Assembly (NCBI GenBank): GCA_025201375.1
Contig: JAIWZP010000085.1
Location: 1 to 64,000, forward strand
Reading direction: 5' to 3'
From: Gongronella butleri
Lineage: Eukaryota; Mucoromycota; Mucoromycetes; Mucorales; Cunninghamellaceae
DNA: 64,000 bases
The position numbers and the translations under genes were made by a program. A model generated the notes under the pieces. The model ran no database searches, had not been told where the DNA came from, and saw only the letters and a list, made by a program, of their open reading frames with translations. Position 1 is the first letter of the stretch; the number at the start of each line of letters is the position of its first letter. Positions 18,763 through 51,290 of this stretch are shown in pieces.

Positions 18763-19673
18763 ATGGCCACGACAATTGCAACTACACAAACCAATACAGC
18801 GCATCTTGAAGCCATCCTTGCTGGTAAGATCATTTTTGGTGTGAACGCCCCATCTTATTTTGCTTCTTTAGGCCTCCGAGTTAGCACGCCCGAGATTGCA
18901 CGTTTGATGACCAACTTGCAAGCGATTTTGAGCACCCCGAATGCAACAGATCAGGAAACGCGAAGTGATCCTCTGGGTCAAGTTGTGATGTCATTGGAGC
19001 GTTCTTACGCCAAAAAGATCAGGTGGCAGCCCATTCGACGCTGTTCAATATTTATCAGTTGGAGTTGTTTTGCAACACCTATGAATTCTTGCGCGTTATT
19101 TCCACGAATGATCAAACGTTTTCAATGAGCGGCTTGAACAGCTACTACCTTCACGTCACCGGTCTATGATAGTCCCTCCATACAGTACATACTGTAGCAG
19201 CCCAAGCCAACACCCTGGAAGAAATTGCTTAAAACCGAACCAAAGGCGATTTGCGCACCCGTAAGTCAAATGTGCAAAAAAAAAGTGTTTTGGGCGCTTA
19301 TAATTTGTTTTTAAGTGTTTCAGAAAATGTACACCGTGTACCGCAAAGGACGACAATCGCAACAAGTTTGCCGTATGTCGCAAACATATTTGGTGCTGCT
19401 ACAGTATTCCACCGCCATTTTAAGCAAAGTCTGCTTCGAGATGTAAATTTGTGTGAGAGATGGGCTGATTCTCCATTTTCGCCGTTTCTCATTTTACAGT
19501 ATACTGTATGTTTTTTAGAACACGACGGCGCAAATGGACATGATTGCGACGACCATGCACCAGCCGGCATTTCTAGCAACTCCTTCTTGCGTACAGATCT
19601 ACCAATTATCCAGGCCATGCAGGAAGAATATGAGCAACTCATCGCGCGCATGGATGCCCCGTAAATCGCTCAA
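18763..19673 (+). pseudogene. Disrupted gene of unknown function
   Basis: Exon 1 (18763-18823) and exon 2 (from 18872) splice cleanly in phase (…HLEAILAG then LRVSTPEIARLMTNL…). At about 19020 the frame must shift by one to continue into AAHSTLFNIYQLELFCNTYEFL. Further coding-looking pieces are PKPTPWKKLLKTEPK (about 19203-19250) and MYTVYRKGRQSQQV (from 19328). Three TACAGTA/TACTGTA words (19181, 19190, 19400) fall inside. Deleting the 5-bp CAGTA at 19400 would join the open frame on both sides. I did not recognise the protein. It is probably a decaying gene, but a sequencing error at 19020 or an unusual intron is possible. Confidence 0.4.
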
Positions 19674-21030
19674 ATAAATGGCCACCATTCTACACTTGGT
19701 CAATTGTTACTGTATCCATTACCCATTCCTCATCCAGCACATACATCCATGCAATTGATCATTAAAACATCATCTTTCCATTACTCTCTTTTGTGTTACG
19801 CACAGGTCATAGGCGAGGATGCCCGTGTGCCCGTATCAATGGTGTCCGTGGAGGAGGGTCTGTCAAGAACTCAAGATCATACTGTAATGGGCGCAGGCGC
19901 TCAGCCCATCCCCTGACGCAAAAGTCATCGTACTGTGTCCATTTTATATGGTTGTACTGTATATCACGCCCCAGCTCATGTCAAGAGGCAAGCGCGCGCG
20001 CACAATAGGCGCGTCGTCGGCGATTGGAATTCTGCGATGCTTTGACAGACGTTCTAGGGTAATTGATGATTCTAAATCGCATGGTGAAGTCTGAAATGCA
20101 TGTCAGATTGCTGATTTTGAGTAGCGATTTGCGCTGATTTCGCCCTGTCTTTGAAGTCTGCTCTAATACAAGTGCTTCAAAAATCGCTCAATTCGTAATT
20201 CTGTTCCCGTAGTAGCCAGATGTAAAAAAAATTGATTTAGAATTGAATAAAGTTCTCACACGGTGTCCGTTATAACTTAACAAAATTTCCAATCAAATTT
20301 TACATCCAGGGGCATCGCGTTAACTCATCTCAGTGGTGCATTCCTGGGCGCTCAGCAAGAGATTACTGTAAAGTCAAAATGCAGCTGCCCGATTCTCGAT
20401 TTATGGATAGAAAATCATAGGTACAGTAGGCGGCCTTTTCCACTGGTCAACCGTCGCCCAGTTCAGGTGCGTTTTGGCAAAGTTGAGTCTCGCTTTTACG
20501 TGTTCAGGCTTAAGATACAGTACGACGGTTTTTTGCGAGGCACACGAGCGTGCGTGGTACTCCATCATGTCGTCATGCAGGGCCCTTCTGATGATCGTGC
20601 TCTCATGGACATGATCGGCTGCATTGACCTTGACTTCGGATAGAGGGGCTCGCGGGTGTGTATTTACAAAGCGGCCGACGAGACGCGCCAGGGCCCGTCC
20701 TGAGAGCTTTTTAGGGCGCCCTGGCCCTTTTTTTGTCGTTCGTACGTGCCATTTTCTTGAATTCTTTTTTTACGCGCTCTGTCATGTCAGTGGCATTGGA
20801 CAGGAAGAATTATTGAGTGTCAATGGGGGCTGTATGTGAAACAATGCGTATAATAGATTGTGTAACCCACCCTGGCTAGCTGAATAGTATACTGTAAGTA
20901 GACAGCTAGACACCGGGTTTTCTAATAATGAACCGGGCCCCTTGATCTCGTATCTCTCCTTGGTCCTGTACGTACGGTACCTTCAATTTTTTTCTACTAC
21001 TCGTGATCCCGTCTACAGCACAATCACATT
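19674..21030. other. Decayed intergenic DNA
   Basis: No gene or RNA recognised. Several TACTGTA/TACAGTA footprints occur (for example 19708, 19955, and about 20365 and 20515). The stretch 20690-20790 has a GC-rich then T-rich profile but no domain. Confidence 0.4.
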
Positions 21031-21039
21031 TTTTTACGA

Positions 21040-22438
21040 ATGTCTCCCTCTTCTTCCACCTCTCCTTCCACCAGTACCCGCGGCTATGCCGATGCGGTGC
21101 GACGCACGCCGTCGCCGGATCGTGAGTTGCCACCTGCGCGCTCGACCCGGGCAGCAAAAGCTGCAACTGGTGGTGATGTACCCTCTCTGGAGCGAGGGTC
21201 AGCAAGCCCGCCCAAAAGGCAAAGCGCGTGGAACAACGCGGAACCCATCATTCCCACCACGTTTGTGCCTACATACCGGTAGCGTGCTACGGAAGATGAG
21301 CGACGCCGCCGCAGGCCAATTGAGCTCACTGTTGTTGCTGACGTGGTCGTGATTACGGCACAAAAGCAACGTGGACGACGTGGACGTTCGAGCGTCACGC
21401 CCACATCTCCCGCTGCAGAATCGTCAGTGGAAAGCCTCATTGAGGAATCCATCCACTCGGGTCAACCAATCGTCCTCGGAGAAGAAGGAGATTGCAGCAA
21501 CGAGTGCGACGCATGAGGTCACACGGGATTTTTCACCAGAACCTATGGATCTGGACCCCGTTCCTGCCTCAAACAGCAGCTCTACTCGATCTTTTGCTGG
21601 GATCTCTTCTCGCCCATTGAACGTCAGTGAGAAAATCCAAAGGTTGCACAGCGCTATTACTGTAGCCACGTATACCAGGAAATCGACGATGCTCAAGAGA
21701 GACTCATCGATTGCACATTCATCATTTCGGACCGTTTGCAAAGAAATGAAGAGATCATTTCAATTTCTGAGCAGATCGATGATGCACGACGGAAAAAATC
21801 GCTGGAACAGATGCTCGAAGCACTGGAAAGGCTGCTGGAAAGTTTAAAGGATGGCAATTTGGCTCCTCCGATGCATCGGCATGCCGCGCCTACTGTAAAC
21901 CTACCGGTACTTTTTTCACATGAGCAGCAATACTGTACTACTGTACATACAGTATCATCCGAACCTTGCACAAGCGAGTACCAGTGTAACTGAAAAGAAG
22001 CAGAGGCTGCCCAAAGACTTTGTCAAATGGGACACAACAAAGCCGGAAAGCTTGTTGTTCCGCCATCTGGAATCTGTTGAAACTGCAATGGAGCGTGAAT
22101 GCATTGACATACCGGTAGACGCCCATTGGCAACAGGCCAAGCGGTCCATTCTGCACACTGAACAGGTGCGCGCATTTGATGCGGCCCTCAAGGAAAAGTT
22201 TGGTGGGCAACAAGCGCGCATGGATGCGAAAACGATCCCATGGCAAGACGCGAAAAAGGTTTTGCTCAGCCTTTACGGTACGGCGAGTCCGACACTGTCG
22301 CGAGCTCCGAGGTCCGTCTGGACAAAATGCGTTTGACGCCAAACCAGGCACTCGGCCCATACTGTACATGGACAAGTTTGCATATGCGGCCAAGAAAAAA
22401 GCGGAAAAGGAGAACGACAAATCTTTGGATGGGTTTTA
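21040..22438 (+). pseudogene. Degenerate LTR-retrotransposon gag-like relic
   Basis: Coding-looking blocks in changing frames resemble a Ty3-type gag. They comprise a Ser/Pro/Arg-rich N terminus (with an in-frame TAG near 21280), a Glu/Arg-rich coiled-coil block (about 21670-21860) and a capsid-like block. That last block has LPKDFVKWDTTKPESL, RAFDAALKEKFGG, VRLDKMRLTPNQALGP and MDKFAYAAKKK. Frame changes at 21658, 22274 and 22360 coincide with TACTGTA or TACGGTA words, and omitting 5 nt at each restores continuity. No protease, reverse transcriptase or integrase follows. The gag call rests on layout and the xxLxxMRxxPxQ pattern, so it is moderate. Confidence 0.5.
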
Positions 22439-22567
22439 AGTTCTTCATTCGATCCTTGGAAGCCCACCCTTCTTTGTACCGTAAATAAGGTGGCAGCGAA
22501 TTTTTTGTGGAGGTACAGTACGTACTTATAAAGGCAACCTCTCCCAGTTTTTTTGGGCTGTGGAAAA

Positions 22568-23033
22568 TGTCAGGTTCCGCCTGACAAGCTCGCCTACTAC
22601 ACTCTTTTTTTTGCCTCAGGCAGTCAGGCTCCATCCGCTCCTTTCAAGAATTAATTTCCTTTTTGGCAAGCCCGCTCGTTGCCCCGCTGCGCCATCTCAC
22701 CGCTGACACTTTGACCTGCTGACTCCGCTTGGGCAATCCCGACAATCCTTTATCTCTATTTCCCTTTTACTGTAAATAGTAGCCTCTTCTTCCTTTTTTC
22801 CCCTTTTCCTTTTTCCTTTCTTTACTCTCGTCAACACAAGCAATTGACCGTCCTTCCCTCTCGCTCCTAGGTATTAACATCACATTAAACCTTGCTTGTT
22901 GTTCGAACCACTCACACCATGGCCCACTTTAAGCGTCGCTCGAGGCACTGAGACGCCTCACCCGACTCCCAGTCGAGTCGGCGGGAGGCACAGCAGCAGC
23001 AGGAGCGTGACCAGCCAGGGGTGGATCGTCACA
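22568..23033. mobile_element. Solo LTR B with 5-bp target duplication
   Basis: The 466-bp segment starts TGTCAGGTTCC and ends GGATCGTCACA. Its ends are imperfect inverted repeats (8/11), and it is flanked by GAAAA on both sides (22563-22567 and 23034-23038). The paralogous repeat at 50.6 kb has a single GAAAA (50617-50621) at the matching place, i.e. the empty site. Internal layout is pyrimidine-rich, like LTR A. A TACTGTA word lies inside (about 22767). Confidence 0.75.
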
Positions 23034-24640
23034 GAAAATGCCAAAAAAACTCCCATTTATACTACTGTATTTTGCATTCATCTCTCCATTTTCATGGTCG
23101 ACCAGGCTTAAAATTAGCTGCATCGGATTCAGCGTGTCACGATCCCACTCGTGAAATGCCAATACCTTTTTTTTCTCCAGTCCTTTTCTTCCCTTGGTCC
23201 GCCCTTGTTCCGCTTTCCCTTCTCGCGTGCCCATTGGAACCCCGATCTGTCTGTGCGCAAGGCCGCAGACCAATTTGGCCTTGCCCCACATAAAAGACCC
23301 CGCCACCTTCCTTTTCCCCTTCCTTTCTTTTTTTCTTTTCTTTTCTTTTCTCTTCACTCTTCCAACACCCACTCGTTCCCTTGCCTCGCGGTGTTGCTGC
23401 CATCAATAAACCCACGTTTGTCCCAATAATGTCCAATCATGTGCACTCTTTCCGTCAAGGTCGGCGCCTCCGTGTCAAGGGAGTCGCCGCCCGCCGAGCT
23501 CAACGACGCGTTGCCCAACAAGGCATTTGAGCGATGCCAGAGACGCCCGACGCCTCATTAATCACTCGGCCGGTTCAATGACCACGACACTCCCCCCTCA
23601 CCCCCAAGGACAGCGACAGCCTAGGGGATCGGATCGTGTCACAGCGCAAAATTTGCAACAAAAAAGCTTAAACCCCCAAGGGCTACGGTACGACTACTTT
23701 TGAAAAATCCATGGGTTACTCAGGGCGTCAGGGGTCACGAATTTCAATCTCAGAAAATGCCTAATCGAACTCTGAGTGATCAATACATCCCAAATAGATA
23801 ACTCCGATCATTTGCTATTGGCAGACAAAATGCCAGGTTGCCCCTCAACGTAGGAAATAAATGTCCAAAGAGTGACGCATGAACGGCGATCGACTGAGAA
23901 AAGCGCTTACTTCTTTGGGCAAGATTTTTTTTGCAAAAATTTAAGGTTTGACACTTCCAAATTTAGGTGCGTAAATTGCATGGAATTTTTTTACTGTATT
24001 TTTTCGCAGGTTTTTGTGCGCTGTACTGTACCTACAGTAGAGTAGGCTGCAACAAGCGGATAAAATAATGGCCGATGATGCAAAAAGTTACTGTAAACCC
24101 CAAGTTACTGTAGCGCCCTGTAAGTCATCCCATTAGTAGATGCTTTGCCCCCCTGTTTTTTATTAAATCTGAAATAAAAATCGAGGGTTGACTAGACAGT
24201 TGTCGAGCAAATCGTCATTGAATCTTTTGTTGAAAAAGTGTATTTCCTCGGACAGTTTTGATCAGGTCGCCGTGAAACTTGTTCATTCGGTGGAGATTCA
24301 GCAGCAGCATTTGACAATTAAAAGCATCGTTGGTTATTTTTCCAGTTATCGAGAAAAGCAAGTTTGAAAATTGATCCAAACATCAATCAATCTTCCAATG
24401 TTTGATCGACTTTTGCAAGCGGGCAAAGTTCATCCATCGGGCAAGCAAACAATCAGAAAATGTCATCCGACGAGTGCGTCTACCGGTATTTCGATCGGTG
24501 CCATTTCACCGCGATCCACAAAATACAGTATTTCGAGAGACTCGTGCCGGATTTGTGGAAATGTCAGAATTTTGGATTCATCTGCACAATGACTCGGTCG
24601 ACTTTTGATTTGAACAGTTTTTCAAGAAGAGTCGCGCGCG
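23034..24640. repeat. Dispersed non-coding repeat, copy 1 (interrupted by LTR A)
   Basis: Aligns by eye to copy 4 (50.60-51.29 kb) over its left and middle part, and to copies 2 and 3 over its right part. Shared anchors include CATTTATACTA, TTTGCAACAAAAAAGCTTA, AAGTCATCCCA, GGTTGACTAGAC and GTCGAGCAAATC (24202), plus TTTTGGATTCATCTGCACAA (24570). No conserved ORF. It carries 5- and 6-bp footprint insertions absent from the other copies. A further weak match (ATTCATCTGCAAAA) lies at about 24740. Confidence 0.7.
23135..23641. mobile_element. Solo LTR A with 5-bp target duplication
   Basis: The 507-bp segment begins TGTCACGATCC and ends GGATCGTGTCA (terminal inverted repeats 10/11, TG...CA ends). 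It is flanked by CAGCG on both sides (23130-23134 and 23642-23646). The copy at 50703-50707 has one CAGCG with uninterrupted flanks, confirming the insertion. Inside are a TATA-like CATAAAAG (about 23289) and AATAAA (23405), as expected of an LTR promoter and poly(A) region. Confidence 0.85.
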
Positions 24641-25261
24641 TCGGTAAAACATTACTGTATGTGTAGATTTTGAGCCACCCAACCATGATAATTTGTGGCA
24701 TTTACAGTAATTTTGCATTTGTAAAAATGTCGAGATTACGAATTCATCTGCAAAACGCACGATCCAGTCAATCTTGGGGTTTCATGTTGTGTTGTTGAAT
24801 ACAACTGTAAGGCGCGGCGAAATAGTCAAAGGGCAAAGGTTGGGAGGTAATCGATTCATGATTTGTGTTGGTCATCCATGGATTGCTTGGTGCCAATTCT
24901 TGAAAACGGCGCATGCCACGAAAACGGCCCGATCAACATCTTGTTTTTTAATTTTTCTTTCAAAGAGAGACGCTGAAAAAGCCAAGTGGCAAAGTTTGGC
25001 GATGATCGAATCATGATTTACCGCGAAATGAATTTTACAAAAACGCGCTACAGCCAAATTTTCAGCAATGCCGTGCTTCCCGACTACAGTAACCACATGA
25101 TTGACTTTTGGATTTTTATTCTTTTCTGAGAAGAGAGAAGCAACGTCCTCTACATGTAAAATTTTCGTGGAGCTGCGATGAGTCCTAGGTGACGAATTTT
25201 TTTTTTCAAATTTAGAAAAAAAAGGGTGGGTCAGGTCAAAATGCATCTGCAGGAGGGTCCC
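24641..25261. other. Decayed spacer between repeat copies 1 and 2
   Basis: No gene recognised. It contains TACTGTA/TACAGTA words near 24652, 24704 and 25085, and a weak extra piece of the dispersed repeat at about 24715-24775. Confidence 0.4.
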
Positions 25262-25650
25262 CCGCTTTGAGAGGGTCGAGCAAATTGCGATCAAAGATTT
25301 TGATGAAAAAGTGAATTTTCTCTGCGAGTTTTAGTCATTCATCGATGAAAGTGGTCTTATTCGATAGAGATGCAAGAGATGCATTCGACACGTTAAAAGT
25401 GCCGTGTGTTGTCTAATCCGTTGCCGAGAACATCGAGGTTGAAAATTTTGTAATGTTTGAACGGCTTTCACAAGCAGTACAAGGTCACGCATCGGGCAAA
25501 CAAACATTCTGGAAATGATGTCTGAGCATGACTCTTTCGAATGGTGCCAGTTTCACCCTGATCTACAAAATATTTCGAGAGCCATTGCTGAATTTGTGAA
25601 ATGTTGATATTTTGGATTCACTTGCACAACGACTCAACTGAGCAGTTTCT
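25262..25650. repeat. Dispersed non-coding repeat, copy 2
   Basis: Matches copy 1 from GTCGAGCAAAT (25275) to TTTTGGATTCACTTGCACAA (25610), with intermediate blocks CATCGGGCAAACAAACA and TGGTGCCAGTTTCAC. It lacks the TACAGTA and TACCGGTA insertions present in copy 1, showing AAAATATTTCGAGAG uninterrupted at 25566-25580. Confidence 0.7.
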
Positions 25651-26102
25651 GTTTCTAATCATCCGCATGCATCAGGAGCCTCTCTTGCAAATGAACGTCA
25701 GAACACATCGGGGCGAGTTCATGGACGCGTTCTTTTTATGCAACTCGCGTGTAAAGTTTAAACTAAAATTGCGCATTGGGCATTACTCGTTACTGACAAG
25801 GTGTTTTTTTTTGGCATTTTTTGTGGTTCCTCCGATGCTCAATTACTTGTGGGTGAGTTGGGTTTTTGGATACTGTATGCTTCCGGGTAATCCATTTTTT
25901 TTCGATTTTGATTTGAGAGCTTGGCAACGGCTGAATTGGAATTGTTGCCACTGTAAGGAACCGGGTTTTGCCTATTTTTTTTTTTTTTTTTTTTTTCCGT
26001 AATGCAAAAAGCCATCTTAAAATTGAATAGCCGTTGAGCCTCCAAAACTTCACATCTCTTTTTGTTTTCTGTGCTCCAACAACGAGATTTCTTTGTTGAC
26101 CA

Positions 26103-38832: not shown

Positions 38833-41397
38833 GGTATTCGTATGAGAGAGAGGGGGGGAAAAAGAGAGAGAGGTGAAAAAAGTGCTGTTCCTGGTGAATG
38901 AAGTGTCACCATTCAAATTAAAATGGTTGCACAAACTTTTGTGTGACACATTGACTGCTTGACCATGGCGCCATTCATCTTTAAGAACTCGAGAGCCCTG
39001 TTGCTGCCTTTTTTTGCATGCCAAACATAAAACACGCCATCAACTTCAACCTTGTTGTTTTATTGTAAGGCACGATGATACAGTACTCAGATTGAATCAC
39101 TTATTGTTCACGTTCCGCTTGCGATGGTCACTGATAAATGATGAAAATTCGTGAGACCGTGCACATCTCGACCAACAGGCTGATCGCCCTTTCCCGTTTT
39201 TATTGCATGAAAAGGGAAGCCATGAAATATCAAGTCGACGCCCTTTGCCCGTGATCCAAGCATGATTTTATCTTGAAAAACTAAAAAACGCGTGAAATTA
39301 TTTGGCACTGGGGTTTCACTAGCAAACACGAATCTCGTGATTTCTCAAAACTGAGCGATCCGATTTGCGAAAAAAAAATCAACACAGTTGGAGAGTTGGG
39401 TGTATTATCAACTTGTCCAAATTTGGGACCAGATGAGCAAGTTTCCGAGAAAACGCCAGTTTCATAGGCGTAAATGAGGTACGATCAGCAGCATTTTGTC
39501 TCGTACTGCGGCAACGGCTGAGCGCCCCGACGCGTGAATCACTTCAAATGAATCAGCGGGCAAACGCGGTAAAAGCGCTTGTGGTTTGGGAACATCGCGT
39601 CGAGTTTTGGGCGAGTTAGCCCTCAGAGGTCGTTTTGACCCTGATTTGGCCCTGATTTTATGAAAAATGCATTTATCATGACTGAGTGATCCGACCTCTG
39701 GAAAAACTTGACATCGCCGGCTTTTTGTGTTCAGCATTTTCAAGCCTAAATTTAAAATTCGATGAACACGATTCGGAGAACGCGCTCTGAAAAAAAGAGT
39801 AAGGTCTTTTCTATTTTGGTGGCGTACGCGACAACAGCCCGACCATACCGACGTGCGATTCACCTCAAATGAATCTGTGATCAAAGAAGACAGTGAAAGC
39901 TCTTGTGTTTTGGAGACATTGAGTCGAGATCTCGGCGAGTTTGGGGTGCAATGGCTCTGAAACCTCACATTTTCGATATCATCATACAGGATCATATTGG
40001 TTTGGCAGACATGATACTGGGTCGGCTCTGCCTGTCTGTCCATATTCACAAATACAACATGAGCTTCCGCATGCGTGAAAAAAAATCTGTCAGTATCTCG
40101 GCAAGTTCCCCGCGAAAAATGCACAAAAATACCGTTGTATTTGCCTGCTTTGCAGAGCTTGATTGAATAATAAAAGTTCTTACAGACGCTGGTCTGTCAA
40201 TGAAAGAAAGCGTAAACGCAACTTGAACGCGTTTAAACGCGTCAATGCGCGTGTAAGCAGTGATTAAAGAATTAAAATGCTGACTTGTCACGGCAATTGA
40301 TCTTTCTCATGCCGCTTCTCTTACTGTATGCGGGCATTGCCCAATTGTAATGGTCCCGCTCTGCTCGTCAGAAAAGCCCGCTGTCGGCTGCTCATCTCAT
40401 TTTATCGCTTTTTCATGCGTTGTGGAAGAATGCGCATCTTCCTCCATCTCGGTCTCTGTACGCATCATCACATTGTCTCAGAAGTTACGCCGTTAAAGCG
40501 CCATGTGTCGTCACTAATCAGCTGCCGAGAACTAAAGAACATCGAGGTTAAATATTTTTGAACTGTTTGAACGTCTCTCACAAGCGGCATTACAGTACAA
40601 AGGTCACGCATTGGCCGTTCGGCCCGGGCAAACAAGCATTCTGGAAATGCCGTCCGAGCATGTCTCTTGTGAATGGTGCCAGTTTCATCCCGATCCACGA
40701 AATATCTTTCGAGTCATTGATGATTTTTGAAAATGTCGATATTTTGGATTCATCCGCAAAATGACTCAATGGACCTTTGGTTTCAACACCATGCTGAAAA
40801 AAGACGCGACGAAATGGCCTAAACCCCTGAATACAGTAATACAAAGGGTTTGAAGGCGATCCAAGCATCCAAGCATGCTTTCGCTCTCTTTTCTTTTTGC
40901 CATTTTTCGCGGCTTCTCTTTTTGTACGTATGAAGGTATGATATTTTCAATTTTTGTCTGTGGGCTTGGCAAAGGGGGGATTTTGGTTTGCCGTTTGGCG
41001 TTCAATCTAACTGCATTTCAACTTTTGCAGTAGTGCGTCTGTGCGTGATTGCCAACATAAGCTTTTATTCACACCCTCTGAGCAGTTCACACTACTTCCG
41101 GGGCACGCAAGGTGATGCATTCCGGAGCAAGAGCGCGAGCCACCGTACCATTATTCATCACCACTTGACAATGATCGACCTGAAATATCATAGCGAATCA
41201 ATACGCAGAATTTTGCAAAAAATAAATTGATTTTACTACTGCCTCGCCGTTTGTTCGAGACACGCACGATCAAAATCTGGTTTAATTCTCGCGCAATTTC
41301 TCGAAAAAATGAAGCACCCTTTTGTCGGCTGGTTTCTTCCCTCTCGGTTTTTTTTTTTAACTGTAAAGACTCGAAATACAGCGAAATTCGTTCCCAC
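38833..41397. repeat. Gene-free repeat region
   Basis: No coding gene. A degenerate duplication of about 130 bp recurs at 39497-39630 and 39825-39955 (shared CACYTCAAATGAATC, GCTTGTG, GAGTTTTGGGCGAG-like words). A 16-bp perfect palindrome lies at 40227-40242. Dispersed repeat copy 3 is at 40.48-40.80 kb. TACAGTA/TACTGTA words occur near 39080, 40323, 40590 and 40834. Confidence 0.6.
40480..40800. repeat. Dispersed non-coding repeat, copy 3
   Basis: Matches copy 2 through CGAGAACATCGAGGTT-like, AAGGTCACGCAT, CAAGCATTCTGGAAATG, AATGGTGCCAGTTTCA and ATTTTGGATTCATCCGCAAAATGACTC-like blocks. It carries its own TACAGTA at about 40590. No ORF is shared between copies. Confidence 0.65.
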
Positions 41398-46431: not shown

Positions 46432-46710
46432 TGTTGAAACAGGAGAAAGAAAAGCAACAACTGGCCAAAAACAAGAAAAGCAAATTTGTACAGGTACAAT
46501 TGGGCCAACGTGACCAAATTTGGACGTATTGGTCATCAGGATTGAAACTCCGGGAAAAAAGTGCGTGTTGAAATCAAGAAATTGCGCCATCATGCGTTGA
46601 TCTCAATGGCGGAAAGTCCGTGTTGTCATCTTTGCATATTTAAAAGAAAAAAAAAAAAGTCAATTGTTCATTTTCTTTTTACTATTATTTTTTTTCTTTG
46701 TTTTATAATC

Positions 46711-49700
46711 ATGTTGGCTTCAGCTGCGCTGATTACATCCCTCTTGAAGAGCCAATTGGGTGGCAAGGATATCGTGCTGGATGATGTTGCCGTGGAGAAA
46801 GTCGCGGCATCGCTTGGTCTCGACTCGGATGCCTCTTCGACGACAACCGCGAGCCAGACCACTGTGGTAGATGCTGGCGTTCGCTTGCGCTCCAAGTTGG
46901 ACAATTTAGTTTATAATCTTGTCCAAGAATCGATGACTGAAGACAAGACTCGCTTGCTCCACATCAATCACGTCATCGAATACATCAGCTGCGCTCTGTC
47001 TGATATGGTGTTCATCTATCCAGGCACCAGCAGCACCCATCTTGGCCAGGGGCTGCTTCCGTGGGACGAATCCCTGGACAATATTTCTGGCAAGTCCGTC
47101 AAGGTGGTGCGCATGGATACGCGTGATGGTGCGCTTCATGCTGTGCAAGGCGCATTGGAACATGGCGACATCCAAGCTACTGTGCTTGCTTCTAGCCAGT
47201 CGCTCTACAGCATGCTGCCAATGCTTCACCTCTTGGTTGGACAGCAAGCGCCCGTTGTATTCCATGTGGCCGGACATGGCATCAATGGTGCATTGGTGTC
47301 TCGCACTGAATTGGATGCTGTGGTGGCTGCCCGTCAATCTGGTGCTGTGTTGCTCTCCTCTAGCAGCGTGCAAGAAGCTCACGATATGGCTGTTGTTGCT
47401 CGTGTGATTGCCCAGCAATTGCAAGCTCCTGTCATTCATTATTTTGACGGCACCCTGGTGAATCGATTCGAGAAGGTCAATGTCTGTTCGTACAAGAAAT
47501 TGGCTCTGCGCTTGCAAACCGGTGGCTCGTCCGTGCCTAGCATCTTGTCTCAGCATGGTTTCAGCAGCTCGTTTGGCTATTTTGGAAGCCAAAATGCAGA
47601 AACCGTGTTGGTTACGTTGGCTGCGCACGCCTCATCTTCTCTGGTGCGCGCTGTGGAATCCACTCCTGGCGTTGGCCTGCTGTCTGTTCGCGCGTACCGC
47701 CCTTGGCAAGATGACGACTTTTTGCACAGCGTGGTGCCTAGTGCGCGCCAATTGGTGGTGCTTGAGCAAGGAGACGGCCTATATGCATTCAATGGTGCCC
47801 TCTACCTTGATGTTGCGTCTGCTGTTCGATTCGGATCAAGCCATCTGCGTGTCGTCACTGCTCAAGCTCCCGGTTTTGGCCATCTTACCTCTGCTCACTT
47901 GCAAGTTCTTGCGAAGCGCGCATCGTCAGCCTCCTTTGTCGATCTTTTGGATGACAAGTTTGAAGAAATTGAACTTGGAGTAAGGCGATCAAAAAGCAAT
48001 TTGACCAGGATCGCATCCTTACAATTCTTTTTTTTTTTTTTAAAAAAAATAGGAACCATCTGTTGAGACGCAAGCAGGCCATGGCAGTGCATTCCGTGCC
48101 GCTTATTGGGATGTTGAACAAGATGGTACTGCTGTTGCTGGATCACACATTGCTCAATTGGTGCATGAACAAGACCCTGAGCAAGCCGGTATCTGCCAGA
48201 TCGTGCACGATGGCTACCGCGTTGGTGGTGGTGTGACCCACACTCAGATTGCCTGCAACACCAATGACTTGGCTTCCAACAAGGTGAATTATATTGGTGT
48301 TCACAACATTGGTCTTGTCAATGAATACGACATTTTGGCCGAGGCTGCTCAAGGAGCCAAGGTGTTACTTCATGGTCCGTGGCAACACGGCGATGACTTG
48401 GAGTCCGTGCTCCCCAATTCGTTTAAGCTCCGCATGACTCAGCTGGATATCGATCTGTACACGTTGGATGCCACACAAATTGTTCAAGAAGCCGGCTTGC
48501 ACCAACAATCTGCTCACGTTGTGGACGAATTGGCCTTCTTGCTTCTCAATTCTCCCAAGGTGGACCCTGTGGATGTACTCTCAGCTGCGTATCAAGATGG
48601 CAAGCGCGATGTTAATGCCCTCCTCGCTGAGCTTGCTGGTGCAGTGCAATCAAAATTGACGCGCGTTGCTCTGTTGCCCCCTTGGACGATCCTGGAAACC
48701 GACGACGCTGTTCTTCCTGCGTTGCCCTTGGATCGTGGCGATTTGACTCCTCCTGTTGCGGATGACATTGAAGTGCAAGATGACAAGCACTCTCAATTGA
48801 ACGTGGCGACATGGCACAAGGCAGCTTGGCAGATGATGTTCAAGGAAGCCTATCACACCGATTCTTTGCTGCGCCCCGACCTTCACGAGAACAATTATCT
48901 GGTGACCCTCTCGGTGAACCGACGTTTGACCCCTGCTACTTATGATCGCAATGTATTCCATCTCGAATTCGACACCTCAGCCAGTGGCCTCAAGTACGAG
49001 CTTGGTGATGCACTGGGTGTGCATGGGCACAATGACTCTGATGAAGTCAAGCAATTCCTTCAATGGTACGGCCTTGACGAGACGGATGTCGTCACCGTCC
49101 CTGTTGGCGTGCATGCCGGATCTCGCACTGTGTTCCAGCTGTTTTCCCAAGTGCTGGACATTTTTGGTCGCCCAAGCAAGAAGTTTTATGAAGGTCTGGC
49201 CACTGTTGCTGCCGACGACAAGGAGAAACAGCAATTGGAATTCTTGATTTCGGCCGAAGGCAAGGATGCCTTCAAGGCACGTGTGGAAGACACGGTGACG
49301 TACGAAGATCTGTTGCATGAATTCCCTTCGGCTCGACCTTCCTTGGAGCAGCTGATGGCATGGGTGAGCCCAATCAAGCCTCGTCACTACTCGATTGCAT
49401 CCTCGCAAAAGATGCATGGCAATTCTGTTCATCTCCTGGTCGTGGCTGTGGACTGGGTCAACCGCGCCGGCAAACCTCGATTTGGTCAATGCACGCGCTA
49501 TCTGGCCAATCTTGCGGTAGGCTCTCAGGTGACCGTATCCATCAAGCCTTCCGTGATGAAGCTTCCTCCTCTGGACAGCCAACCTGTTATTATGGCTGGC
49601 CTTGGTACTGGTATGGCTCCTTTCCGCGCCTTTATTCAAGAGCGTTACATGGCCAAGCAAGCTGGCAAGCAAGTCGGCCCTGTTGTTCTGTACTTTGGCT

Positions 49701-50035
49701 CTCGCAATCGCTCTAACGAGTACCTGTACGGCGAAGAATTGGAAGCCTACCATCAAGATGGTGTGCTGTCTCATATGGGCCTGGCTTTCTCGCGCGACCA
49801 GAAGCAGAAGGTGTACATCCAACACAAGATGAAAGAAGACGCCGCTATGCTAAGCGACTATCTGATCAACAATAATGGACATTTCTATCTCTGTGGCCCC
49901 ACTTGGCCCGTGCCTGATGTGAAGGACGCTGTGGTTCACGGCCTGACCACCTTTGGTAGCATCCAGGAAGCGGAGGCAAATGCTCTTATTGAAGAATGGA
50001 AGGAAAAGGAACGTTACATCCTTGAAGTCTACTAA
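46711..50035 (+). CDS. MET10: Sulfite reductase (NADPH) flavoprotein alpha subunit
   Basis: Exons 46711-47979 and 48053-50035 give 1083 aa (yeast Met10 1035). The N-terminal half is pyruvate-ferredoxin-oxidoreductase-like (YPGTSSTH, VVFHVAGHGINGALVSR, SVRAYRPWQDDDF). The C-terminal half is a FAD/NADPH reductase with KPRHYSIASSQ (FAD), VTVSIKPSVMKLP, MAGLGTGMAPFRAFIQER (NADPH), YFGSRNRSNEYLYGEE, YLCGPTWPVPDV and a C-terminal EWKEKERYILEVY. It passes NADPH electrons to the sirohaem subunit Met5 in sulfate assimilation. The first ATG sits just before the conserved N terminus. Confidence 0.95.
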
Positions 50036-50274: not shown

Positions 50275-50599
50275 TGAAATGATATCACAAGAGCTACAAC
50301 AGTGGCGACAAGTATTTATTGACAACCGTGATTTTCAGGTTTTAGCACAAGCAAATTCGATTTCTCCATTTGCAATGTGACACGGTAGCGAAGAAACTGA
50401 CGCGTTCTGTCATTTCAATGCCTGAAGAATCGCTTTACGCTGCATAAAAGCTTACACATTCACATTTTAAACACAAAAAGCGTGTTTTTCGGATTTGCCG
50501 GCCCGTCGTGCCTCCAGAATTTTTTTAGAGCTTACTTGCCCAAAGATGAAACCTGCGTTACAGCATAAACTATAGCCCATGGCTCAAGGCGAATCCGCC

Positions 50600-51290
50600 C
50601 GATTTTTTTTGGGCTCGAAAAGTCTCCTATTTATACTATTTTGCATTCATCCGTCCATCTGCATGGTCAACCCCGCTCAAAAATACCTGCATCGATCGAA
50701 TTCAGCGCAAATTTTGCAACAAAAAAGCTTACACACACTTTTAGGGCTACGATCACTTGCCGGTATGTAAAAAATTCAGGGGTCACATCTCAACCTCAGG
50801 AAATGCCCAAATTTGAGAAATTTCGAATTCCGCATGATCAATGCATCCCAGACAAGGCAACTCCGATGATTTTCTATTGGCTCACAAAATGACAGGTCGC
50901 CTTCAAGTCACGCATGAACAGCGATCGGCTGCAATTTTTTTTTAACATCATTTTGTGCAGCCCGAGCTAGCGCGCTGCAAGTCATCCCAATATATGCTTT
51001 TCCCCTTGTTTTTTTTTTTTAGTAAATCAGGAATAAAAATCACAGGTTGACTAGACCGTTGTCGAGCAAATCGCGATTAAAAAATTGTTTAAAAAGTGTA
51101 TTTTCTCTGCGCGTTTTGTTCATCCATCGGTGAAACTGGTCACATTCGATAGAGATTAAATGCCTGCTTTCGACACGTTAAAAGCGTCGTAGGTCGTCCT
51201 GTATGTTGGCGAGCAAACCGAATTTAAAAATCGATGAAATGCTCGATTGGATTTTGCAAGCGTGTAAATGTGCTCGTTCATCGGACTCGC
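50600..51290. repeat. Dispersed non-coding repeat, copy 4 (carries empty sites)
   Basis: Collinear with 22.55-24.4 kb but lacking both LTR insertions (single GAAAA at 50617-50621, single CAGCG at 50703-50707). It also lacks the footprints found in copy 1: it reads ATTTATACTATTTTGC at 50630, GGGCTACGATC at 50745 and GAGCTAGCGCG at 50964. It therefore serves as the pre-insertion reference. Confidence 0.75.

Follow-up and report, generated by a model that had tools for sequence, protein, structure and literature searches.

The 64,000-nucleotide stretch of the Gongronella butleri genome considered here (assembly GCA_025201375.1, contig JAIWZP010000085.1, positions 1 to 64,000; hereafter, the window) contains 41 copies of the words TACTGTA and TACAGTA (together, TACWGTA). 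It is very likely that these words, as well as TATSATA and TACSGTA words, are the excision footprints, or scars, of cut-and-paste transposons of the Tc1/mariner superfamily, which insert at TA. The basis for this conclusion is that single copies of a repeat present a scar word where most copies present TA, and that elements with CNG, CTG, CAG or CCG ends next to TA exist in this genome, with some of the matching-end elements carrying intact DD34E transposase frames. The scars would comprise a long-standing and probably still ongoing record of excision by several element families, one that is best kept in gene-poor repeats. The mechanism itself is known; new are the density of the words, the rule limiting them to three words, their chaining in runs of as many as 8 units and the variable base at the element ends. 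The initial annotation of the window had attributed TACTGTA and TACAGTA to Tc1/mariner excision. The present analysis supports that inference and its extension to two further scar words, a probable second class of footprint and a genome-wide scale, none of which appeared in that annotation.

Probable scar words and their empty sites

Across 100 dinucleotide-preserving shuffles of the window, TACWGTA was found 1.83 times on average and 6 times at most, as compared to the 41 copies observed. The words are distributed as follows:

19100..25900, no strand: gene-poor, scar-rich island with 31 TACWGTA words, the other 10 of the 41 lying outside
19495..19508, + strand: two TACWGTA words back to back, TACAGTATACTGTA
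21931..21954, + strand: cluster of three TACWGTA words

The initial annotation had put about 31 copies in the island, as was indeed counted, and fewer than ten in the rest of the window, where 10 were counted. When 420 permuted words were considered, the mean was 0.98 per 6.8 kb. The runner-up count was 11 (ACTGTAT, ACAGTAT), reached because both words overlap TACWGTA, shifted by one base; scrambled 7-mers thus do not share the enrichment. Within 19100-25900, 31 of the 45 TANNNTA words are TACWGTA. As the flanks of the window's 41 words are mutually different, the words do not represent one tandem array; some stand back to back. Long frames (at least 200 amino acids, stop to stop) cover 21,968 of the 64,000 bases and contain one of the 41 words, such that the earlier statement that the words avoid intact genes holds in rough terms. 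Scars may have been kept in the gene-poor island because there is no selection there against a 5-base pair (bp) insertion. Outside the island, most words lie in or near two further repeat stretches, at 50398-51286 and 39286-40822, that the window has in common with loci fetched from elsewhere in the genome.

In the genome as a whole (32,997,837 bases in 110 contigs, with the window being part of the contig termed C95), TACTGTA occurs 16,213 times, as compared to 554 times for TAGTCTA, a matched control of the same composition and TA frame (about 29 to 1). TATCATA occurs 9,529 times, as compared to 1,031 times for its reversed word, a control without TA at its ends. In 302 kb comprising the window and the fetched loci, only CWG (10.3-fold), TSA (3.4-fold) and CSG (1.4-fold) of the 32 TANNNTA classes exceed mononucleotide expectation, the next class reaching 0.97; these densities should not be taken as genome averages, given that the fetched loci cluster at repeats and transposases. 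TA itself shows an observed-to-expected ratio of 0.49-0.56 throughout the window and the loci, although scars keep adding TA.

The empty state of scarred sites was read in a repeat designated family-1, one copy of which makes up the last quarter of the island:

23642..25277, + strand: family-1 repeat copy of about 1.64 kb; 29 more copies, 81-87% identical, were fetched and used for the empty-site reading

A genome search for family-1 scored 40 candidates, which gave 88 match rows; the 29 copies fetched (L043-L071) were aligned with that of the window, giving 30. Insertions and deletions (indels) were read for all pairs of copies, with 12-base clean flanks required, and an insertion was considered derived when present in at most 3 copies and absent from at least 8, the empty state being inferred from paralogous copies within one genome. 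Derived insertions outnumbered deletions at lengths of 3 bp (90 to 3), 4 bp (32 to 1) and 5 bp (29 to 2), whereas deletions prevailed at 1 bp (38, versus 19 insertions). In 25 of the 29 derived 5-bp insertions, TA had become one of the three scar words, namely, TACWGTA (18), TATSATA (4) or TACSGTA (3); the others were one TAGTGTA and three that fell into no class.

The same picture was obtained when each word in family-1 was compared with the counterpart sites in other copies. CWG words faced a majority two-base site in 34 cases, mixed sites in 38 and a majority seven-letter site in none, with 14 being comparable in too few copies; TANNNTA words of other classes gave, in the same order, 1, 3, 11 and 5. 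The ratios of two-base to seven-letter majorities, 34:0 and 1:11, respectively, differ with a Fisher p of 9e-10. In the same categories, TSA words gave 3, 9, 0 and 4, and CSG words 3, 2, 0 and 2. The window's own copy contains 9 TACWGTA words, 6 of which represent a 5-bp gain at a site that is two bases long in most other copies. Together with the existence of matching donors, this bears out the excision-scar reading first proposed for the window. The words in that copy, with the state of the 29 other copies, are:

23992..23998, + strand: TACTGTA word, no private 5-bp insertion; a stretch of similar length in most other copies
24024..24039, + strand: two words (24024, 24033); family-1 copies leave the empty state undecided
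24089..24095, + strand: TACTGTA scar; TA in 25, TT in 2, six letters in 1, unclear in 1
24106..24112, + strand: TACTGTA scar; TA in 21, scar word in 3, AA in 2, other lengths in 2, unclear in 1
24524..24530, + strand: TACAGTA scar; TA in 27, scar word in 1, TATTA in 1
24653..24659, + strand: TACTGTA scar; TA in 16, scar word in 5, other in 8
24703..24709, + strand: TACAGTA scar; TA in 23, scar word in 5, TAGTGTA in 1
25085..25091, + strand: TACAGTA scar; two letters in 29 of 29, these being AA instead of TA

Replication was sought in an all-against-all alignment of the window and the fetched loci, in which family-1 copies (56,494 of 309,949 bases) had been masked. This yielded 903 indel events, an event common to several loci being counted once per locus, of which 76 were 5 bp in length. 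CWG (18), TSA (6) and CSG (2) accounted for 26 of these 76, whereas the remaining 29 TA-NNN-TA classes were absent. At one locus (L038), a transposon copy some 99% identical to its relatives contains a private TACAG insertion at TA.

Several observations weigh against the excision explanation. TACTGTA exceeds its reversed-word control (6,355) by far less than it does the matched control, and TACCGTA (1,999) is rarer than its own (9,577), such that its count offers no genome-wide excess, although these comparisons are unfair because TA is scarce and the reversed words, having no terminal TA, are not matched for that scarcity. The class densities given above come from loci clustered at repeats and transposases. 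The counterpart sites of 38 CWG words in family-1 are mixed, 50 of the 76 5-bp indels outside family-1 are not of TA-NNN-TA form, and events there were counted per locus. In the window's copy, the AA facing the scar at 25085, the similar-length stretch facing the word at 23992 and the undecided pair at 24024 and 24033 likewise count on this side. Lastly, no TA|TSA donor was found by inverted-end matching, which covered the fetched loci only.

Candidate donors and the form of the scars

When Sleeping Beauty or a related element is excised, its transposase cuts such that the last three bases at either end stay behind as 3' overhangs. During end joining, pairing would occur at the outer positions of the overhangs (C-G or T-A), leaving a mismatch at the middle position that would be resolved in favor of either side. 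In this manner, CAG or CTG ends would yield TACAGTA or TACTGTA, CCG ends would yield TACCGTA or TACGGTA, and a TCA-ended element, hypothetical here, would yield TATCATA or TATGATA. Each scar would, moreover, add a TA that could be hit again, giving rise to chains of TA-NNN-TA units; chains of up to 8 units were observed. CWG, TSA and CSG have in common the form TA-X-N-X'-TA, with the outer bases being mutually complementary, as expected where 3-base overhangs from identical ends are joined with their outer bases paired. TACAGTA and TACTGTA are the two consensus footprints of Sleeping Beauty, according to a published account (PMC4378557).

The initial annotation had named the absence of CAG-ended elements from the genome as a finding that would refute its inference, yet both TA-flanked CAG or CTG ends and DDE transposases were found. 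PF13358 (DDE_3) is represented by at least 74 match rows, some genes giving two rows, and many of the matches lie in frames that are open for 336, 346 or 360 amino acids; PF03184 (DDE_1) is represented by 3 match rows. Terminal inverted repeats adjoin TA in the donor elements. Ends reading CNG-TA-CMGTRCCC occur on elements of 1.34-1.40 kb with a transposase (L024, L027, L073-L075) and on elements of about 1.0 kb, which are palindromic in large part. At L037, L043, L045, L048 and L061, elements of the latter size have the same ends and form, for much of their sequence, an inverted repeat. The triplet in TANNN before CCCTA-type ends (n=81) was CWG in 75 cases, CSG in 4, TCA in 1 and ATG in 1. 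A wider end pattern, WNNNNTACMGTRCCCKRMM, was found at 195 places (reversed control, 7), and the 100 of these matches that were listed comprised 88 with TACWG, 6 with TACSG and 6 others. In the fetched loci, CNG-TA directly precedes 23 of 27 end-pattern matches, with two of the four misses being unlike such ends.

Ends of a second kind, CTGKATTTGTCC, occur on TA|CTG elements of 5.26 and 5.31 kb; the corresponding pattern, TANNNKATTTGTCCAWTYAG, was found at 14 places, all 14 with CTG (reversed control, 0). The 5.3-kb TA|CTG element (L072 and L019, the latter at C54:14101-19408) contains a DDE_3 frame of 336 amino acids and, in another part, a frame of 329 amino acids that matches a helix-turn-helix domain only weakly, short of the Pfam cut-offs. 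A pogo-like TA|CAG element of 2.9 kb, with ends reading TA|CAGTAGGTTCTGG, encodes DDE_1 and a Tc5-type DNA-binding domain. Finally, a 1634-bp TA|CCG element, with ends reading TA|CCGTGGCTCTC, is the likely source of TACSGTA. For the inner TA|CCG element of L031, the occupied site has TA on both sides and paralogous empty sites have a single TA or TG. The matches obtained when TA|TSA elements were sought by their inverted ends in the fetched loci proved to lie inside the palindromic 1-kb element.

Transposases of the CNG-ended and CCG-ended elements match that of Sleeping Beauty (5cr4_A), the two compared being those of L073, in a frame of 360 amino acids, at E 3e-29 and of L028 at E 1e-48. D165, D262 and E297 (L073 numbering) are invariant in L073, L024, L028 and L019, with 34 residues between the last two, i.e., DD34E. 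PF13358 was detected in all of these, and PF01498 in three, L019 being the exception. No surviving copies had been expected in the window. Indeed, none of the listed 74 DDE_3 rows, 3 DDE_1 rows, 81 TA|NNN-TA-CMGTRCCC ends and 14 TA|CTGKATTTG ends lies on contig C95, nor were CMGTRCCC ends found when the window itself was scanned.

Alternative explanations

The notion that TACWGTA is ancestral and serves as the preferred target of TA-inserting elements, its abundance thus reflecting targeting rather than departures, is improbable. It draws on the high share of TACWG (88) and TACSG (6) among the 100 listed of 195 wider-pattern ends, a pattern that itself demands A or T at the fifth base before the inner TA, and on L073, where two abutting elements have one TA in common with no CNG between them, as if the flanking CNG were that of the target. 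Yet, in paralogues, the words are seen as 5-bp additions to plain sites. At the L031 empty site, moreover, none of 29 alignments presents a tandem scar pair and one (L073) presents a single scar, the others mostly reading CA instead of TA. TCA, too, was found at only 1 of the 81 ends with upstream TANNN, even though TSA scars are common. It is more improbable still that the scar word is a functional motif under selection. The strong enrichment and clustering of the word could be so understood, but many words are private to one or a few repeat copies, a distribution at odds with such a role, and the behavior of the word is matched by that of two further words built in the same way. Slippage, or another general process of small insertion, hardly merits more credence. 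The repeats do abound in small indels and often have 3 bp duplicated in tandem, but the excess of insertions over deletions at 3, 4 and 5 bp is reversed at 1 bp, and nearly all TA-NNN-TA insertions belong to three of the 32 classes instead of being spread equally over them. Excision by TA-inserting transposons thus remains the preferred explanation.

The variable middle base of the CNG ends was considered separately. The elements of L073-L075 are 99.85-99.93% identical, yet their outer triplets have either T or A between C and G, and the two ends of the L074 element do not agree in this base. More likely, the CNG triplet is the true element end, the middle base of which is re-drawn at transposition. 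This is favored by the L031 element, inserted in a family-1 copy, for which 29 alignments cross the empty site and none has tandem scars; against this, most copies at that site read CA, not TA. Less likely, the triplet belongs to a double scar that was used as target, as could be argued from L073, where two elements adjoin with one common TA and no triplet between them. At L073:1-1941, a 1-kb and a 1.34-kb element are found end to end, and their junction is a perfect palindrome. When the joined flanks were inspected for a pre-existing double scar, L031 spoke against it, L073 for it and L037 was too diverged; the double scar was kept as a rival.

Other proposals fared less well. Complementary end triplets reflecting a 7-bp target duplication were considered, and TACWG-at-both-ends pairs proved unlike in 21 cases and alike in 13 (by eye, in the 100 of 195 places listed); when tested, 22 of 35 pairs gave p 0.18, leaving the proposal unsupported. 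Like-with-like targeting in scar chains was likewise dropped, since neighbors were CC in 71, CT in 70 and TT in 20 cases (580 C-type and 222 T-type units), with no excess of CC. It is conceivable, if rather unlikely, that clean joining of overhangs after excision is a main source of 3-5-bp insertions in non-coding repeats and that CNG elements also reintegrate by overhang ligation. Were this so, the CNG overhangs of an excised copy would serve to ligate it into a break from which another copy had departed, and the finding of CAG at some ends and CTG at others of otherwise identical copies would follow from the middle mismatch being re-drawn at each ligation. Overhang ligation would then offer a Tc1/mariner element a second route of reintegration, besides strand transfer.

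A probable second class of footprint and comparison with known systems

Most derived 3-bp insertions in family-1 (72 of 90) duplicate an arbitrary triplet exactly and in tandem, with 68 of these duplications not being homopolymers; outside family-1, non-homopolymer tandem copies account for 47 of 107 three-base indels. Among the 32 derived 4-bp family-1 insertions, 19 consist of a triplet, one base and the triplet again, with the extra base complementing a bordering base in 19 of 19. In cases with a unique fit, complementarity held for 9 of 9 in family-1 (p 9e-4) and 6 of 7 elsewhere (p 0.024); a looser set outside family-1 gave 13 of 27, AGAG/TCTC repeats making up 12 of the 14 exceptions. 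PF02992 (CACTA-type transposase) has 9 match rows in the genome, 8 over the cut-off and one in a 906-amino-acid open frame; PF02992 elements lie on contigs C53, C62, C98 and C31. Earlier reports describe P nucleotides as marking hairpin-ended excision, namely, that of Ac/Ds in Candida albicans (PMC5873905), and CACTA elements as making 3-bp target duplications (PMC4423477, Table 1). The likeness to these systems, i.e., 3-bp duplications, some with an extra complementary base, in a genome with a PF02992 transposase, suggests, at the level of sequence, that the 3-bp duplications are hairpin-type, CACTA/EnSpm-like excision footprints. A 507-bp insertion at 23135-23641 was dropped as a source of 3-bp duplications, given that its 5-bp duplication, CAGCG, and TG...CA ends (by eye) point to a solo long terminal repeat (LTR). 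With copies 94-98% identical at six other places, this insertion is probably a recent solo LTR.

Impala and other fungal Tc1-like elements also insert at TA and leave short CAG/CTG footprints. Like the Sleeping Beauty/Tc1 group, the system described here involves a TA target and its duplication, terminal inverted repeats, a related DD34E transposase and the footprints TACAGTA/TACTGTA. Unlike Sleeping Beauty, it presents thousands of words in 33 Mb, set against at least 74 DDE_3 rows. It also differs in that the scar words number three, that as many as 8 units are chained together and that the middle base of the end triplet varies. Such scars are known, while their scale and layering are unusual; in open-licence PubMed Central literature, no report of such genome-wide accumulation of scars was found, itself weak evidence of absence. 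In rice, cut-and-paste elements, Mariner/Stowaway among others, were likewise recognized from occupied versus emptied sites, with 8 of 94 excisions being perfect and most showing deletions or filler (PMC4423477). By contrast, the short derived indels seen here are mostly clean, although only short indels with clean flanks were screened.

Once a DNA transposon has departed, its excision is seldom easy to recognize, and the footprints of fungal DNA transposons have been called almost undetectable (PMC10691877). A recognizable footprint word, together with a paralogous empty state, allows departures to be counted per repeat copy and compared with surviving elements. The scar record would also allow the repair of transposon breaks in a natural genome to be read. 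Furthermore, the X-N-X' rule predicts element ends from scars alone, with TATSATA calling for a TCA- or TGA-ended element.

Elsewhere in the window, frames at 46561-50035 encode a POR_N domain, followed by FAD- and NAD-binding domains, an order which we take to be that of a fungal-type sulfite reductase flavoprotein.

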